Under the pieces are notes generated by a model that was given only the letters and a program-made list of their open reading frames with translations, was not told the DNA's origin and made no database searches. From positions 1 to 35,702 of the forward strand of contig JAIBBI010000042.1 in NCBI GenBank assembly GCA_019694755.1: a stretch of 35,702 bases of DNA, given 5' to 3'. Every line of letters begins with the position of its first letter. Positions within the stretch are counted from its first letter, which is position 1. The stretch comes from Gemmataceae bacterium. GTDB lineage: Bacteria > Planctomycetota > Planctomycetia > Gemmatales > Gemmataceae. Shown here piece by piece: positions 18,823-35,702 of this stretch. The position numbers were made by a program, and so were the translations under genes.

Positions 18823-19926
18823 ATGCCGAAGGTGATGCGCTGGAATCCGCCAGAGAAGTCGCAGGAGACGATGATCTCCGAATGCGCGACTGCGCTGAAG
18901 GCCGGCCAACTTGTCGGACTTGCTACGGAAAGCTGCTACTTCGCCGTGGCCGACCCGGCCAACAAGAATGGCATGGCCAGGCTGACCAAGTGGGTTGGCG
19001 AAGATCTGCCAATCGTCGAGGCGCTTTCTGTCACCGAGCCCACGGACAAATTCATCGCTCAAGGTAGCGCGCTGGCCCGGCGACTGGCCCGCCGGACAAT
19101 GCCAGGCCCCATCGTCCTGGTGGCGGCCAACGGCAAGAAGGAATCGCCGGTCGCACGGTATGCCCCAAACTCCGGATCCGTCAGGCAACTCATTGCTTCG
19201 TTAGGTCACAACCTTAGCATGGGGACTCGGCTGCTACCCACGGACAGGCCGCCGATCAATGCCCAGGAACTTGCCGAGGCGGGCGGTGATGCGATTTCCG
19301 TTATCCTCGATGCCGGACAATCACCGTACGGCAATTTCCCGACAGTCGTTGAGGTGGACGGGAACCAATATTCGATACCCGTCGTCGGCGTCGTCCCCCC
19401 CGAACAGTTGGTCGTCCAAACCGCTTGGCTGGTGTCCTTCGTATGTACCGGCAACACATGCCGAAGCCCGCTGGCCGAAGCGCTCTGCAATAAGATCCTG
19501 ACCGAACGGCTCGGATGTTCACAGGAAGAGTTGCTGGCCCACGGATTCCGCATTACCTCCATGGGGCTTTCGGCTTTGCCCGGTAACACGGCCACATCCG
19601 AGGCGTTAATCGTTGCCCGTGAAATGAAAGCCGATCTTTCGGGGCACCGCTCGCAGCCATTGCATCCGGAATTGCTCGAGTTGGCCGACTACGTAATCAC
19701 GATGACGGGCATTCATCGGGATTCGATCGCGGCTATACATCCCAATCTCGAAAAGGCCACGCGACTCCTCTGCGGCAAGTCCGACCTCGCCGACCCGATT
19801 GGCGGCGACCTGGAGGTGTACCGCAAGTGTGCGAAAACGATGCAGACGCATCTGGAAAAACTGGTTGATGAGATGCTCAATGCCGGCGTCCCGGAAATGG
19901 TAGACGACGACGGAGCCGAATCATGA
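18823..19926 (+). CDS. fusion of a degenerate YrdC/Sua5-like domain with a low-molecular-weight (arginine?) phosphatase
   Basis: 367 residues, two domains. Residues about 12-195 resemble YrdC/Sua5 (TsaC), which makes threonylcarbamoyl-AMP for tRNA t6A: LVGLATESCYFAVADP and ARRTMPGPIVLV match its beta-strands. The KxR motif (expected near residue 57) and the 'SxSAN' motif near 135-145 are not recognisable, so catalysis is doubtful. Residues about 203-360 are an intact LMW phosphatase: P-loop CTGNTCRSP (Cys208, Arg214) and DP loop SDLADP (Asp324). The residue equivalent to Thr11 of B. subtilis YwlE is Thr212, the residue that gives YwlE specificity for phospho-arginine. The next gene is rpiB (4-base overlap), the same order as ywlC-ywlE-ywlF in Bacillus. 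The substrate is inferred, not shown. Confidence 0.85.
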   Translation: MPKVMRWNPPEKSQETMISECATALKAGQLVGLATESCYFAVADPANKNGMARLTKWVGEDLPIVEALSVTEPTDKFIAQGSALARRLARRTMPGPIVLVAANGKKESPVARYAPNSGSVRQLIASLGHNLSMGTRLLPTDRPPINAQELAEAGGDAISVILDAGQSPYGNFPTVVEVDGNQYSIPVVGVVPPEQLVVQTAWLVSFVCTGNTCRSPLAEALCNKILTERLGCSQEELLAHGFRITSMGLSALPGNTATSEALIVAREMKADLSGHRSQPLHPELLELADYVITMTGIHRDSIAAIHPNLEKATRLLCGKSDLADPIGGDLEVYRKCAKTMQTHLEKLVDEMLNAGVPEMVDDDGAES

Positions 19927-20368: not shown

Positions 20369-23260
20369 TCAGGGTGTGCCCAGTGAGTCCGCAAGGATTT
20401 CCAGTGGATGCCTGGCTTTGCGTCCGGTCAGATCCTTGATCTGGTGTCGACACGACGTTCCAGTGGCGGCGATGACAGCATTCGGCTTGGCCTTAACCGC
20501 AGGCACCAGTTCCAAGTTCGCGACCTGTACGCTGACATCGAAATGTTCATAGCCGAACGATCCAGCCATTCCGCAGCAACCCGCATCCAGCACAGTAACG
20601 GACGGGTTGACCATACTCAACGCAGCAGCCGATCCCTGAACTCCGAATAGCGCCTTCTGGTGGCAATGCCCGTGGAAGACAATCTCCTGGTCCATTGGCC
20701 GAGTGTTTAAGGTCGTTTCACCCGCACCAATTCGATCTGCCAGCCAACTGTCAGCTAGCGCGGCATGACGGGAGATCGCCCGCGCGTCGTCACCGGGCAC
20801 GAGGTCCGGCCATTCGTCTGCCAGGGTCACAATGCAACTCGGTTCGACGCCAAGTATTGGCGTTCCCCGATGGGCGTGAGCCGCCAATTGCTGGACGCCG
20901 GCCCGGGCCAGTTCGCGTGCTTCTTTGAGAAACCCCTTGGAAATCAGGGATCGCCCGCAACAGATCCCGAGCGGCTTCACGCGGTAGCCCGCCGCTTCCA
21001 GGACAGTGACGGCTGACCGCCCGACACCCGGCTCGTTGTAGCTCGTGAAACAATCGTCGAGAAACAGCACTTCGCCCGACTCGCCCTTGGCGACGGGACG
21101 CGAGTCAAACCACTTCCGGAAATGTTCCCGTTGAAATCCCGGCAGGCTTCGCCGCCGATCGATCCCCGAGAGTTTTTCCATGAGCCATCGCGTGAACGGC
21201 TCTTTGCCAAAGAAGTTTACGACTGCCGGAATCATCGAGCCTATCCGGTTGATGGTCTGGTAGTTGGCCATCATCCGATGGCCGAGCGGCCGACGGTGCT
21301 CTCGGTAGTACGCTTCGAGAAACTCGGCTTTCAGCTTTGCCAGATCGACGTTGCTGGGGCATTCCGCTTTGCACGCCTTGCACATCAGGCAAAGGTCGAG
21401 CACGTCGTAAACCCAACGTTCGGCTAATGGCTTAGAGGTACTGCCCGTCGCTCCTTCCTGGATTGCCACTCTCAGGGCATTCGCCCGGCCGCGCGTGGAG
21501 TCCCTTTCATCGCGGGTCGCGCGAAACGAGGGGCACATGGTCCCGCCTTGAGTCTTGCGACATACGCCCGACCCGTTGCAAAGCTCGATCGAGCGGAAGA
21601 AACCTTCCTGACGGCTGTAATCAAACACGGTGGGCGGGTCGGATTGCGGCAATCCATGTGCCTGACGCAGGTCGTTTTCCATGGCCGGCGCGTCGACAAC
21701 CTTGCCCGGGTTGAAGAAATTGGTCGGGTCGAAGGCCCGCTTGATCTGGCGAAATGCCTCGTAGATCGTCGGGCCAAACATCTTGCGATTCCACTCGCTC
21801 CGGACGAGTCCGTCGCCGTGCTCGCCGCTGAGGCTGCCCCCGAATTCCAGCACCAGGTCCGTTACGTCCGTCATGATGCTGCGCATCCGGACGATGTCAT
21901 CCGGTAGGCGAAGATTCAGGAGCGGCCGAAGGTGCAAACAACCGACGCTGGCGTGCCCGTAGAACGCGCCGTCCGTCCCGTGAGCATGGAGGATGGCACG
22001 AAACCGGTCGGCAAACTCCGGGAGCTTGTCCGGGGCGACGGCCGGGTCTTCCACGAAGGTGACGGGCTTGCGATCACCCCGAATGCCGTACAAGAGCGGC
22101 ACGGCCGAGCTGCGAAATGCCCAGAGTTTATCCCGCTCTGTCAGGGTGGATGGAACGACGCATGCCGTCAGGCCGGGCCGGTTGGCGAGCATGGCCCGGC
22201 ACTTCTCCACGCGATCGTCCACCTCCTTTTGCGATTCGCCGGAAAACTCCACCATCAGCAGAGCGGATGGCCGGCCCTCGATCAACGCGGTAACTGACTT
22301 CAGGGCGAGGTTGGCGGCGGCCAGCGAGATCAGGAGGTCGTCCAGCAACTCGACGGCCGAGGGGCTGAGCGTCAGGCATTCGTGAACGCAATCAAGGGCG
22401 GATCGAAGGGAGCTGAAGTGAGGCACGAGGAGCCCGCGAAACTTGGGTCGCGGAACCAGATCCAGTTCCGCCTCGGCAATAAACCCAAGGGTCCCTTCGC
22501 TTCCGACAAGAAGGGGAATCAGGTTTGCATTCCCCTTCTCGATTTGGGAGAGCAGTCCTTCCAGGTTGTAACCGGAAACTCGGCGGAGTATAGCTGGAAA
22601 CTTCGACCTAATCTCGGCAGCATTTGTTCGGACTATCTCCCGAGTCGACCGGTAAATGCCGCCCTCGAGATTGGGTTGTTCGGCTTTTCGATCCCACTGT
22701 TCGCCTGTGAGCGGTTCGACCCAGCTATCCGACCCGTCGGCCCAAAGCATGTGCAGACGGCGTGTATGATCCGACGTCTTGCCGTAGACGACCGAACGCG
22801 ACCCTGCCGAGTTGTTGCCTAGCATTCCGCCCAGGTTGGCGCGACTGGATGTTGCCACGTCGGGGCCGAACCACAGCCCGTCCGGTTGTAATGAACGATT
22901 CAACTGATCCAGAATGACGCCAGGCTGTACGCGCACCCGGCGACTTGACGGGTCGTAGTCCACAACTTTGTTCAGGTATTTGGAGCAATCGACGACAATC
23001 CCCGGGCCAATCGATTGACCCGACAGGGATGTCCCACCCCCCCGAGGTACCAGCGAAACATTGGCCTCGCGGGCAATCTGAACGGTTGCTTTGAGGTCGT
23101 CACTCGTACGCGGCAAAACGACGCCGAGCGGTTCAACGTAATAGATGCTGGCGTCGGTGGCATACAATCGCCGGGCAGTGCCATCGCACCGGACCTCGGC
23201 CGTCGTATGTTGGGCGAGTTTCCTGGCGATCGTGTTCATTTCGGTTGGCAGTGGCTTCAT
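20369..23260 (-). CDS. FAD/4Fe-4S D-2-hydroxyacid dehydrogenase (YdiJ-like)
   Basis: 963 residues from ATG 23260, which overlaps the aat stop by 4 bases; a longer frame upstream is Arg-rich and runs antisense-like inside aat, so it is rejected. Order of domains: FAD-binding PCMH type (VPRGGGTSLSGQS, residues 71-83), FAD-oxidase C-terminal domain (to about 510, with SGEHGDGLVRSEW), two 4Fe-4S sites (Cys561, 567, 576; and CLMCKACKAEC at 624-634), and two CCG cysteine domains (Cys767/768, Cys895/896). This layout is that of YdiJ/GlcD-GlcF fusions, which oxidise D-lactate or D-2-hydroxyglutarate and pass electrons to the membrane chain. The substrate cannot be decided from sequence. It is the last of three coupled genes. 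Confidence 0.9.
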   Translation of the reverse strand: MKPLPTEMNTIARKLAQHTTAEVRCDGTARRLYATDASIYYVEPLGVVLPRTSDDLKATVQIAREANVSLVPRGGGTSLSGQSIGPGIVVDCSKYLNKVVDYDPSSRRVRVQPGVILDQLNRSLQPDGLWFGPDVATSSRANLGGMLGNNSAGSRSVVYGKTSDHTRRLHMLWADGSDSWVEPLTGEQWDRKAEQPNLEGGIYRSTREIVRTNAAEIRSKFPAILRRVSGYNLEGLLSQIEKGNANLIPLLVGSEGTLGFIAEAELDLVPRPKFRGLLVPHFSSLRSALDCVHECLTLSPSAVELLDDLLISLAAANLALKSVTALIEGRPSALLMVEFSGESQKEVDDRVEKCRAMLANRPGLTACVVPSTLTERDKLWAFRSSAVPLLYGIRGDRKPVTFVEDPAVAPDKLPEFADRFRAILHAHGTDGAFYGHASVGCLHLRPLLNLRLPDDIVRMRSIMTDVTDLVLEFGGSLSGEHGDGLVRSEWNRKMFGPTIYEAFRQIKRAFDPTNFFNPGKVVDAPAMENDLRQAHGLPQSDPPTVFDYSRQEGFFRSIELCNGSGVCRKTQGGTMCPSFRATRDERDSTRGRANALRVAIQEGATGSTSKPLAERWVYDVLDLCLMCKACKAECPSNVDLAKLKAEFLEAYYREHRRPLGHRMMANYQTINRIGSMIPAVVNFFGKEPFTRWLMEKLSGIDRRRSLPGFQREHFRKWFDSRPVAKGESGEVLFLDDCFTSYNEPGVGRSAVTVLEAAGYRVKPLGICCGRSLISKGFLKEARELARAGVQQLAAHAHRGTPILGVEPSCIVTLADEWPDLVPGDDARAISRHAALADSWLADRIGAGETTLNTRPMDQEIVFHGHCHQKALFGVQGSAAALSMVNPSVTVLDAGCCGMAGSFGYEHFDVSVQVANLELVPAVKAKPNAVIAATGTSCRHQIKDLTGRKARHPLEILADSLGTP

Positions 23261-23916
23261 GCGTCCACAAAGGTAGGAGTATCGGCAAGCGCCTCGGACA
23301 GTCGGCGCAGGTAATCTGATCGCGGGATCTCGATCGCTCCGAGGCTGGCGGTATGTGGCGTCACCATTTGAATGTCGAGCAATCGAAAGCCTCGCTGTTT
23401 CAGTCGGCCGACCAGTGCAGCCAAAGCGATCTTCGAAGCATCCGAAACGCGGTGAAATTTGGACTCGGCCGCGAACAGTCCGCCGATTGCGAGTCCATAG
23501 GTGCCACCGACCAATTGGGCGTCCTGCCATACTTCGACACTATGGGCATGGCCGAGTTCGAAGAGCCGGGTGTAGGCCGCAACGACGTCGTGCGTGATCC
23601 AAGTCCCTTCCTCGCGGTCGGCACAACCCAGCATGACGCCGCCAAAATCGACATTGATCGTGACCCGAAACCGGCCCGATCGGATCGTCCGGGCCAGACG
23701 CCGACTGATGTGAAAACCGTCCAATTCGATGATCGCTCGGGGGTCGGGCGACCACCAGAACATGGGCCATTCGGGATCGCAATAGGGTTCAAATCGCGTC
23801 GGGAATACGCCGCTCGCATAGGCCGCCAGGATCGTTTCCGGTTCGAGGTCCGCGCCGATACCGACCAGTCCCTGTTCGTCGGCGGATTCCGCGTCGAAGA
23901 CCCAGCCCATCCTCAT
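23257..23916 (-). CDS. aat: leucyl/phenylalanyl-tRNA--protein transferase
   Basis: 219 residues. The enzyme moves Leu or Phe from its tRNA to proteins with an N-terminal Arg or Lys, marking them for ClpS/ClpAP degradation (bacterial N-degron pathway). Family motifs: GLVGIGADLEPETILAAYASGVFP near the start, MFWWSPDPRAII (about 52-63), THDVVAAYTRLFELGHAHSVEVW (central), and the C-terminal TPHTASLGAIEIPRSDYL. It overlaps both neighbours by 4 bases (ATGA), which implies translational coupling to unrelated genes: a secretin-like small protein upstream and a dehydrogenase downstream. Confidence 0.95.
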   Translation of the reverse strand: MRMGWVFDAESADEQGLVGIGADLEPETILAAYASGVFPTRFEPYCDPEWPMFWWSPDPRAIIELDGFHISRRLARTIRSGRFRVTINVDFGGVMLGCADREEGTWITHDVVAAYTRLFELGHAHSVEVWQDAQLVGGTYGLAIGGLFAAESKFHRVSDASKIALAALVGRLKQRGFRLLDIQMVTPHTASLGAIEIPRSDYLRRLSEALADTPTFVDA

Positions 23917-31804: not shown

Positions 31805-31810
31805 TATAAT
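31805..31810 (+). promoter_or_regulatory. selC: -10 element of selC
   Basis: A perfect TATAAT, 10 bases before the tRNA-Sec start, at the distance expected for transcription beginning just before the mature 5' end. No good -35 lies 16-18 bases upstream (around 31781-31789). Confidence 0.6.
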
Positions 31811-31819
31811 CAGACGCAG

Positions 31820-31917
31820 GGGAGTGTTTCCACGGCTGGTGCCGGGCCTGGTCTTCAAAACCAGCGGCGGGTGGGATGACTGCTCGCAGTGGGTTCGATT
31901 CCCATACACTCCCGCCA
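31820..31917 (+). tRNA. selC: selenocysteine tRNA, tRNA-Sec (anticodon TCA)
   Basis: 98 bases including an encoded GCCA end. It has every hallmark of bacterial tRNA-Sec. The acceptor stem has 8 bp (GGGAGTGT 31820-31827 with ACACTCCC 31906-31913). The D stem has 6 positions (31831-31836 with 31841-31846, one A-G mismatch) and a 4-base loop. The anticodon stem CTGGT/ACCAG carries loop CTTCAAA, with TCA at 31855-31857 reading UGA. A long variable arm (31865-31888) folds on itself. The T stem has 5 bp around TTCGATT, and the discriminator is G. It serves UGA recoding with SelA, SelB and SelD, none of which are in the window. Confidence 0.95.
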
Positions 31918-31944: not shown

Positions 31945-33522
31945 ATGCGACATCTGTCCCGCGGACTGGAGAGTTGGCTTCTGGCGGTGGCATTCGCCGT
32001 CGCATATACGCAATCACCTCTCTACTGGTCCAACCAGAATCAATACTTCCTGCATGGTCTTGCGGCAGGGGGTGCGGGTGACCTCGCTTCCGATTGGCTT
32101 GCATGCACAACCGATCCAACCCCCGTTTTTTCGGGCCTTGTTGCCTTTGGATTCAGGCACCTGGGCCCTTGGGTGTTTCAACTGGGTTATGTGGCGATAC
32201 TCGCCTTCTATTTCCGTCAGATCGAACGGTTGCTCGACAATTGCCTCGGGATTGATCGACCGGGCCGATTGTTGTCATTGGCCTTGATCATCGTCGCGCA
32301 TTCCGCAGGCGTGCGATACGCTTCGGTCTTGCTCACTGGCAAGGATTACCCGTGGTTCATTCAGGCGGGCCTGGCCGGGCAATACTTGCTTGGGCCAGGA
32401 TTGCAGCCCTCGGTCTTCGGAGTAATGCTGCTTTCGGGATTTGTGGCTTTTTCCGAGGGTCGGCCGCTCGAGGCGGCTGCCTGGACTTCGCTCTCCACGG
32501 TCTTCCACTCCACCTACCTTCTGCCCGCGGCCCTATTCATCCTGGCCTACCAGATCACGCTGTCCCTTCGTGGAAAGTACAAGTCCGCATTTCAGACGGG
32601 GTTGATGGCGTTGGCTCTCGTGATTCCAGCAGTGGCATACGTGTCCTGGGGATTTCTCGGTGCCGACGCCGCGGTGACCGAGGAAGCTCAACGCCTCCTC
32701 GTGGACGTGCGGATCCCGCATCATTGCCACATTGAGAATGCCATCGACAAGGTGGCGTTAGTTCAAATCGGCGCGATCGTGATCGGACTCCTGGTCCTTC
32801 GAAAGTCGCCGGTCGGACAACCTCTGACGTTGGTATCGGCCGCCGCATTGACCTTGAGCGTCGTGCAACTGGTCACAGATAGTCGGCCTTTAGCCCTTCT
32901 ATTCCCGTGGCGAGTCAGCGCTGTACTCGTTCCAGTTGCGGCGGCTGCGTTGACGGCTCGTATCGCATGCGACGCTGTCAGCCGCTGCCAGGGGCTAGGG
33001 AAAATTGCTTGGGCCTACGGGCTTACAATCGCTGCTTCCGCAACCGGCACGATAATGACGGCCCGAGGGGTTGGGTTTCCGATCAACCGTGCCGAAAGCA
33101 ATTTGATCGAATTCGTCCGCCAAAACCGAAGGCCGGGCGATGTCTACCTCATCCCGGTGACCATTCCCAAACTGTCAGCCGGTCCCCGGGGCTCTGTATC
33201 CATGACCTTTGCGGTGCCGCCACCGCTCGCGCCCGGACTGATACCGCTCGACTTCCAGAGATTCCGGCTTGCGACCGGGGCCGCGATCTACGTCGATTTC
33301 AAATCCATTCCGTATCGGGCAACGGAAGTCATCGAGTGGCATCGACGCTTGGAACTAGTGGCAAACTGGTATTCGACCGGCAGTTGGGCCGTCAAGACTC
33401 CGGACCTGATACAGGCGGGAATCACTCATGTGGTTATTCCCGCCAACCACGCATCGACCGGCCCGGGCCAAAGTATCTATACGGACGAACACTACACCTT
33501 GTATCAGATCGAGCGAAATTAA
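31945..33522 (+). CDS. multi-pass membrane protein (DUF6798-like C-terminus)
   Basis: 525 residues from ATG 31945, 28 bases after tRNA-Sec; the frame is open back into the tRNA (31876), but that part is the tRNA itself. About ten hydrophobic segments fill residues 10-395 (such as SWLLAVAFAVAYTQ and VAILAFYFRQIERLL). The C-terminal 130 residues are soluble, and contain FRLATGAAIYVDFKSIPYRATEV and GITHVVIPANHAS, similar to the C-terminal domain I associate with DUF6798. The general shape resembles polytopic glycosyltransferase-like proteins, but I see no catalytic DxD motif. Function unknown. It ends 1 base before tRNA-His (opposite strand). Confidence 0.75.
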   Translation: MRHLSRGLESWLLAVAFAVAYTQSPLYWSNQNQYFLHGLAAGGAGDLASDWLACTTDPTPVFSGLVAFGFRHLGPWVFQLGYVAILAFYFRQIERLLDNCLGIDRPGRLLSLALIIVAHSAGVRYASVLLTGKDYPWFIQAGLAGQYLLGPGLQPSVFGVMLLSGFVAFSEGRPLEAAAWTSLSTVFHSTYLLPAALFILAYQITLSLRGKYKSAFQTGLMALALVIPAVAYVSWGFLGADAAVTEEAQRLLVDVRIPHHCHIENAIDKVALVQIGAIVIGLLVLRKSPVGQPLTLVSAAALTLSVVQLVTDSRPLALLFPWRVSAVLVPVAAAALTARIACDAVSRCQGLGKIAWAYGLTIAASATGTIMTARGVGFPINRAESNLIEFVRQNRRPGDVYLIPVTIPKLSAGPRGSVSMTFAVPPPLAPGLIPLDFQRFRLATGAAIYVDFKSIPYRATEVIEWHRRLELVANWYSTGSWAVKTPDLIQAGITHVVIPANHASTGPGQSIYTDEHYTLYQIERN

Positions 33523-34518: not shown

Positions 34519-35702
34519 ATGCTCGGCATCGACCTGGGAACCACTTTCTCCGCAGTTGCCACGCTGGACGCGTCCGGCCGAGCCGTGACCGTCCCGAATT
34601 CCGACGGCGACATTCTTACTCCAAGCGCGATCTACCTCAACGGCTTGACGGCCGTCGTGGGGCAGGCCGCGCTCGACGTTCAGAGTGAACAACCCGAGCA
34701 CGTCGCTACACTGATCAAACGTCGGATGGGCTATCCATCATTTGGCCGACAGGTCGATGGCCGCGACTTTCGCCCGGAAACACTTTCGGCGCTCATACTT
34801 AAGAAACTCGTCAGAGACGCGTCGGCCAGAGTGAAAAATCTGGACCCGATCGTTGTCACAGTCCCGGCCTATTTTGACGATTCGCGGCGGAAAGCGACGC
34901 ACGATGCCGGGCGGATCGCGGGCATTCGCGTTGCCGATGTATTCGACGAACCGTGCGCCGCGGCCCTGACTTACACTTTCGACCAGGATGACAGAACGGA
35001 CCGCGAGAAGTTCCTGCTCGTGTACGACCTCGGTGGCGGAACTTTCGACGTTAGCATTGTTCGCGCTGCAAGGAAGCGATTTCACACAATTGCCATCGCC
35101 GGCGATGTACAACTCGGCGGGCATGATTGGGATCGGCGTCTTGTCGATTACGCGGCTGATGCGTTCGTCGCACAACATGGATCGGACCCCCGCAGCGACG
35201 CGAAGTCCCTGGCTCTTGTGGAATCTGCTGCCGAGCGTGCCAAGCGCACGCTCAGCAAACTGCCGCAGACCACGGTTACCATAAGCCACGCGGGTCACTC
35301 ACTGTCCGTCCCGATTACCCGAGCTCAGTTCGAGGCGATGACTCGGGACCTTCTGCTTCGCACCCGCATGACTGTGAACGAAGCACTCCGGCAGGCCGGC
35401 GTCGGCTGGGATCGGATCGACCGGCTGTTGCTTGTCGGCGGCTCGACGCACATGCCGATGACACGGTCGATGCTTCGTGAACTCTCGGGAAAGGATCCGG
35501 AGACAGGACTTGCCGTAAGTGAAGTGGTGGCCCGTGGGGCGGCATTGCATGCGGCAATTCGGGCGTCTCAGATGGCGGCCCGGGCCGACGATCTGGCCGA
35601 CATCGTCGAAGTTCATGTGAACGCTCACGGACTCGGCGTGGAGGTCCGCGACAAGGATAATGTCGTCAATGACATCGTCATTCCTCGAAACACCCAGCTT
35701 CC
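34519..35702 (+). CDS. Hsp70-family chaperone, N-terminal part (partial)
   Basis: The gene starts at ATG 34519 and is open to the window end (394 full codons visible). Hsp70 ATPase motifs are present: phosphate-1 MLGIDLGTTFSAV, VTVPAYFDDSRRKAT, phosphate-2 LLVYDLGGGTFDVSI, and adenosine motif LLLVGGSTHMPM. The nucleotide-binding domain is shorter and more divergent than DnaK, and no dnaJ or grpE lies nearby, so it is likely one of the extra Hsp70 paralogs common in planctomycetes rather than DnaK. The substrate-binding part is outside the window. It shares the strand of rplC, 72 bases downstream. No ribosome-binding site is seen because a palindrome occupies that place. Confidence 0.88.
   Translation, partial: MLGIDLGTTFSAVATLDASGRAVTVPNSDGDILTPSAIYLNGLTAVVGQAALDVQSEQPEHVATLIKRRMGYPSFGRQVDGRDFRPETLSALILKKLVRDASARVKNLDPIVVTVPAYFDDSRRKATHDAGRIAGIRVADVFDEPCAAALTYTFDQDDRTDREKFLLVYDLGGGTFDVSIVRAARKRFHTIAIAGDVQLGGHDWDRRLVDYAADAFVAQHGSDPRSDAKSLALVESAAERAKRTLSKLPQTTVTISHAGHSLSVPITRAQFEAMTRDLLLRTRMTVNEALRQAGVGWDRIDRLLLVGGSTHMPMTRSMLRELSGKDPETGLAVSEVVARGAALHAAIRASQMAARADDLADIVEVHVNAHGLGVEVRDKDNVVNDIVIPRNTQL

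Follow-up and report, generated by a model that had tools for sequence, protein, structure and literature searches.

A selenocysteine tRNA gene of a Gemmataceae bacterium belongs almost certainly to a complete bacterial selenocysteine system with predicted redox selenoproteins

Introduction

A gene for selenocysteine (Sec) tRNA, read from the sequence of a contig of a Gemmataceae bacterium (JAIBBI010000042.1, assembly GCA_019694755.1), raises the question of whether this organism recodes UGA and, if so, for which proteins. The original prediction held that the gene implied both UGA recoding and the synthesis of selenoproteins. Here, the window refers to the whole stretch of 35,702 nucleotides that was analysed, and the family refers to Gemmataceae.

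Full sets of Sec-insertion genes were reported for Gemmata obscuriglobus and Isosphaera pallida in 2016; the trait as such is therefore already on record. The main text of that report names no selenoproteins for either species (PMC4807772), and we found no record of the products of the Sec system of the present bacterium in the literature searched. Formate dehydrogenase alpha subunit (FdhA) and SelD are held to maintain the Sec trait, which aerobes rarely keep (PMC1794560, PMC13188914); FdhA and/or SelD occurred in every selenoproteome of the time (PMC1794560).

Results

The tRNA-Sec gene and its surroundings

ARAGORN called a tRNA-SeC (tca) on the forward strand with bounds of exactly 31820–31917, the same as those predicted for a complete tRNA-Sec. 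The Rfam model RF01852 matched 31820–31913 over its full positions 1–91 with 78.9 bits (E 8e-15); thus, the proposed covariance-model check gave a score above the gathering score of 47. Folding of the sequence gave a cloverleaf (-46.3 kcal/mol, z -2.7) that has a long variable arm, an 8-bp acceptor (GGGAGTGT/ACACTCCC), a 5-bp T stem (8+5 arrangement), a TCA anticodon, G73 and an encoded 3' GCCA (31914–31917). ARAGORN, RF01852 and the fold thereby confirmed the acceptor, variable arm, anticodon and GCCA that had been described. The D stem has six positions, as described, one of which is not paired and forms an A.G mismatch. By eye, most of the 20 family tRNA-Sec genes listed also have a mismatch at this position. 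An encoded CCA is unusual among the family's tRNA-Sec genes: GCCA was encoded in three of the 20 inspected, that of the window included, and most had other bases than CCA after G73. In itself, the tRNA gene is a typical representative of a family already known.

A TATAAT hexamer at 31805–31810 (+), read directly 9 bases 5' of the gene, may be the -10 box of a promoter belonging to the tRNA gene; a two-hexamer scan upstream of the gene found no promoter-like site, and there was no convincing -35. Downstream, 27 bases separate the tRNA from the ATG, at 31945, of a DUF6798 membrane-protein gene (31945–33522, +; Pfam PF20604), the neighbour that had been noted just behind the tRNA. We rejected this gene as part of the Sec system, since a DUF6798 match lay beside tRNA-Sec in none of the 19 relatives checked. 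The Pfam matches in the window include the BBP7 porin, DUF6807 and DUF6798, families that we take to be associated with planctomycetes, which fits the description of a Gemmata-type planctomycete. Elsewhere in the window, one open reading frame (ORF; 18823–19926, +) carries two fused domains, Sua5/YrdC and low-molecular-weight protein tyrosine phosphatase. A 1053-aa protein (20369–23530, -) with FAD-linked oxidase, 4Fe-4S and cysteine-rich (CCG) domains resembles a D-lactate/2-hydroxyglutarate dehydrogenase fusion. An 'NAD-GH' match (34738–35298, -), near the ribosomal protein L3 gene (33610–34446), falls on a likely spurious ORF.

Sec machinery in the same genome

Pfam scans of the 20 main ORFs found neither selA, selB or selD nor a selenoprotein in the window, as had been stated. 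This isolation, and the loss of the trait in some relatives, would be expected if the tRNA were a relic that had outlived the other parts of the system. However, the genome that holds the window (5.64 Mb, 335 contigs, draft, 97% complete) contains all three genes above their curated cut-offs: selA with 517.5 bits (cut-off 267.9; contig C207), selB with 374 bits when joined to the adjacent in-frame stretch (cut-off 242; C27) and selD with 363 bits (cut-off 125; C169). A Pfam scan of SelB identified the EF-Tu, SelB beta-barrel and C-terminal SelB winged-helix domains. SelD is the Cys form, its nucleophile being Cys by reading ('CAGCAAK'). The three genes lie on separate contigs; their stretches match the window in GC (0.61–0.67) and in tetranucleotide usage (correlation 0.94–0.99), which argues against contamination. 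These intact genes, together with the TGA-containing redox genes described below, which retain the sequence of their families beyond the TGA, refute the relic reading, and we consider it very improbable. The refuting check set out with the original prediction was thus carried out and left that prediction standing.

Three predicted selenoprotein genes

A genome search had been proposed for genes with an in-frame TGA and a SECIS-like hairpin; scans for redox families yielded at least three, in each of which a single TGA replaces the Cys codon of a known family and a hairpin lies downstream. A scan for AhpC/TSA proteins identified two of them and a scan for AhpD/CMD the third. The first, on the reverse strand of contig C233, encodes a SelL-related peroxiredoxin-like protein ('...VFLRHFG-U-TFCREAL...', UxxC motif; NF040769, 136.6 bits, cut-off 120), with a four-helix membrane domain, which has no Pfam match, joined in frame at its N-terminus. 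The second (C80) encodes a TlpA/ResA-like thioredoxin ('...EFWGIH-U-GPCLASMPHL...', UGPC motif) with a signal-peptide-like start and a long C-terminal extension; it fell below every specific NCBIfam cut-off. The third (C108) encodes an AhpD-like protein ('...NGCLY-U-MESH...', CLYU, a CxxU motif; TIGR01926, 158 bits, cut-off 81.8). Its stretch, only 3.2 kb long, has a lower GC (0.56) and a lower tetranucleotide similarity (0.755) to the window than the sel-gene stretches. We found no Sec-containing FdhA in this genome; the best match (287 bits) has no stop.

On the sequence evidence, the membrane-anchored, secreted and AhpD-like proteins of these genes are predicted selenoproteins. Standard annotation would end all three at the UGA, in agreement with the expectation that selenoproteins would look truncated. 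Together with selA, selB and selD, the three genes point to an organism that would recode UGA and make selenoproteins, as the original prediction proposed.

Conservation of the SelL-type gene across the family

In a fragmented draft genome, in-frame TGAs might be sequencing errors or marks of pseudogenes, such that the tRNA would serve few or no proteins; the modest stability of this genome's own hairpins is compatible with such a reading. However, a SelL-type homologue with one in-frame TGA, at one column, occurs in 55 of 95 family genomes, which were assembled separately. Among 58 extracted SelL-type sequences, 54 had TGA and four had TGC or TGT at that position, Cys being the sole alternative. 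The Sec/Cys column is invariant in an alignment of 36 SelL-type sequences, and the protein sequence after the TGA is conserved. Across the family, TGA-SelL showed no significant association with either tRNA-Sec (Fisher P 0.61) or SelA (P 0.74), because nearly all genomes carry the trait; we therefore give this comparison no weight.

The fusion to the four-helix membrane domain was found in this genome, in G030 and G031 (Sec forms) and in G074, whose Cys form makes the fusion unambiguous; we did not find this membrane-anchored variant described in the literature. When the phylum was sampled more widely, SelL-type genes occurred both with TGA and free of stops. Cys forms were also found in Acidobacteria, Bacteroidota and others in a named genome collection; the search pattern required Cys and returned only such forms, and the result is thus uninformative on the distribution of Sec.

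Covariation of the downstream hairpins

Folding energy alone gave weak evidence of SECIS elements (z about -0.9 on average, relative to synonymous shuffles); therefore, we used covariation. In the common SelL type, represented by 43 distinct TGA sequences, a G-initial triloop caps a 7-bp hairpin at positions 18–34, numbered from the T of TGA. The basal pair of this hairpin is kept in 41 of 43 sequences; permuting one side gave 20.8 on average (0 of 5000 permutations as high). Five pair types account for the 41 (C-G 22, G-C 12, U-A 4, U-G 2 and A-U 1; unpaired, 2). The basal pair links the wobble base of one codon with the first base of another, for which protein constraint offers no ready explanation. 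Over the whole hairpin, 95.3% of the alignment cells were paired, against 87.1% after shuffling (0 of 500 as high) and 37–59% when the hairpin was slid, and the covariation score was 0.227, which fell to 0.085 on shuffling and to 0.076 or less on sliding. Kinship among the sequences inflates the pair counts; nonetheless, the signal is gone one column away, and the four positions just outside the hairpin showed no pairing signal.

The SelL gene of this genome has an 8-bp hairpin (z about -1.2 to -1.6) and belongs to a sub-clade of three TGA members, which differ in sequence. In the TlpA-like gene, the TGA is shared with G044 and G047, which are of another genus and 43–44% identical over more than 320 aa. 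Its hairpin reads CCACCU-GGUC-AGGUGG both here (z -1.8) and in G044; one relative, G047, has CCACUU-GGUC-AAGUGG, a compensatory change. The hairpin is missing from three Cys homologues. The AhpD-like gene also has a downstream hairpin with a GGUC loop. Both the SelL family of the relatives and the TlpA-like gene thus retain the hairpin through compensatory change. With the TGA conserved in independent genomes, the covarying SelL hairpin and the compensatory change in the TlpA-like gene, the reading of the TGAs as errors or pseudogenes is refuted for the family, and we give it hardly any credence for the present genes.

Distribution of the Sec trait in the family

The trait had been introduced as one scattered among bacteria. 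Within this family, however, it is near-universal: tRNA-Sec was found above 60 bits in 76 of 95 genomes, SelA above its cut-off in 85 and both in 71. The remaining 19 genomes were searched again with laxer filters, and those of the resulting hits that were read with ARAGORN proved to be tRNA-Ser, tRNA-Leu and others. That the window gene is itself another UGA-reading tRNA (a suppressor or a class II tRNA-Ser or tRNA-Leu) misnamed as tRNA-Sec is the least probable reading of all: RF01852 does match tRNA-Ser and tRNA-Leu weakly in these genomes (about 30–54 bits), but the weak matches read by ARAGORN bear Ser, Leu or other anticodons, whereas the window gene has 78.9 bits, the 8+5 arrangement of acceptor and T stem, the 6-position D stem and the TCA anticodon.

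In fourteen relatives with SelA, no tRNA-Sec was detected, probably owing to draft gaps. Both were absent from five genomes. Three of these (G039, G049 and G094), each at least 95% complete, lack tRNA-Sec, SelA and TGA-SelL together, which suggests a few losses of the trait. Twelve relatives have an FdhA with one in-frame TGA, and further TGA-containing TlpA-like matches occur in several relatives (e.g., G060, G062, G069, G070, G076 and G079), indicating that selenoproteomes differ widely within the family. Among the Sec-positive genomes, 51 have TGA-SelL without TGA-FdhA and 28 have neither, few protein families having been searched.

Discussion

Taken together, the gene content argues that the tRNA-Sec of the window is almost certainly part of a complete bacterial Sec system, which would serve at least three redox selenoproteins in this organism. 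SelA would turn seryl-tRNA-Sec into selenocysteyl-tRNA-Sec, with SelD as the source of selenophosphate, and SelB would deliver the product to those UGA codons after which the mRNA forms a short hairpin, the bacterial SECIS, which SelB would read. Sec would then actually be inserted into the membrane-fused SelL-related (UxxC), the secreted TlpA/ResA-like (UGPC) and the AhpD-like (CxxU) proteins, for which redox roles are predicted.

The system resembles selA/selB/selC/selD of E. coli in the 8+5 arms of tRNA-Sec, in SelA, in the C-terminal winged helix of SelB, in SelD and in a UGA with a hairpin immediately downstream. In two of the three genes here, this hairpin has a GGUC apical loop, for which E. 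coli fdhF is the comparison. In contrast to E. coli, the sel genes here are spread over different contigs, SelD has Cys as its nucleophile and the search yielded no Sec-FdhA. The full Sec-insertion set is common to this bacterium and the planctomycetes reported earlier (PMC4807772), whereas we add candidate UGA-containing products, the hairpins of their genes and counts of the distribution across the family. The addition over prior knowledge lies in the predicted products served, which are SelL-type, TlpA-like and AhpD-like and not FdhA or SelD.

The SelL-related protein shares the RHxx[U/C]xxC motif with NF040769 and AhpC-TSA_2 (PF13911, Prx-like 2 group) and, with 136.6 bits, exceeds the NF040769 cut-off; the family profile also gives a nearly full-length match to prostamide/PGF synthase 9us9. 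It differs from NF040769 in the fused N-terminal four-helix membrane domain, a feature shared by the Cys homologue of G074 and by the proteins of G030 and G031. A 2026 review of the prokaryotic selenoproteome does not name SelL. AhpD-like TIGR01926 (CxxU) and TlpA/ResA-like thioredoxins (UxxC) are listed selenoprotein families and motifs (PMC13188914); compared with the latter, the protein found here scores below the specific NCBIfam cut-offs and has the long C-terminal extension.

Automatic annotation systematically truncates or misses selenoproteins, and concrete genes, UGA positions and hairpins are now given for checking. We tentatively propose, with a confidence just short of even, that a SelL-type selenoprotein, and not FdhA or SelD, mainly maintains the Sec trait in the family, the variant here being membrane-fused. 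A family that nearly always carries the Sec machinery, mostly without Sec-FdhA and often with a SelL-type UxxC protein, provides a testable counter-case to the view that FdhA and SelD maintain the trait.
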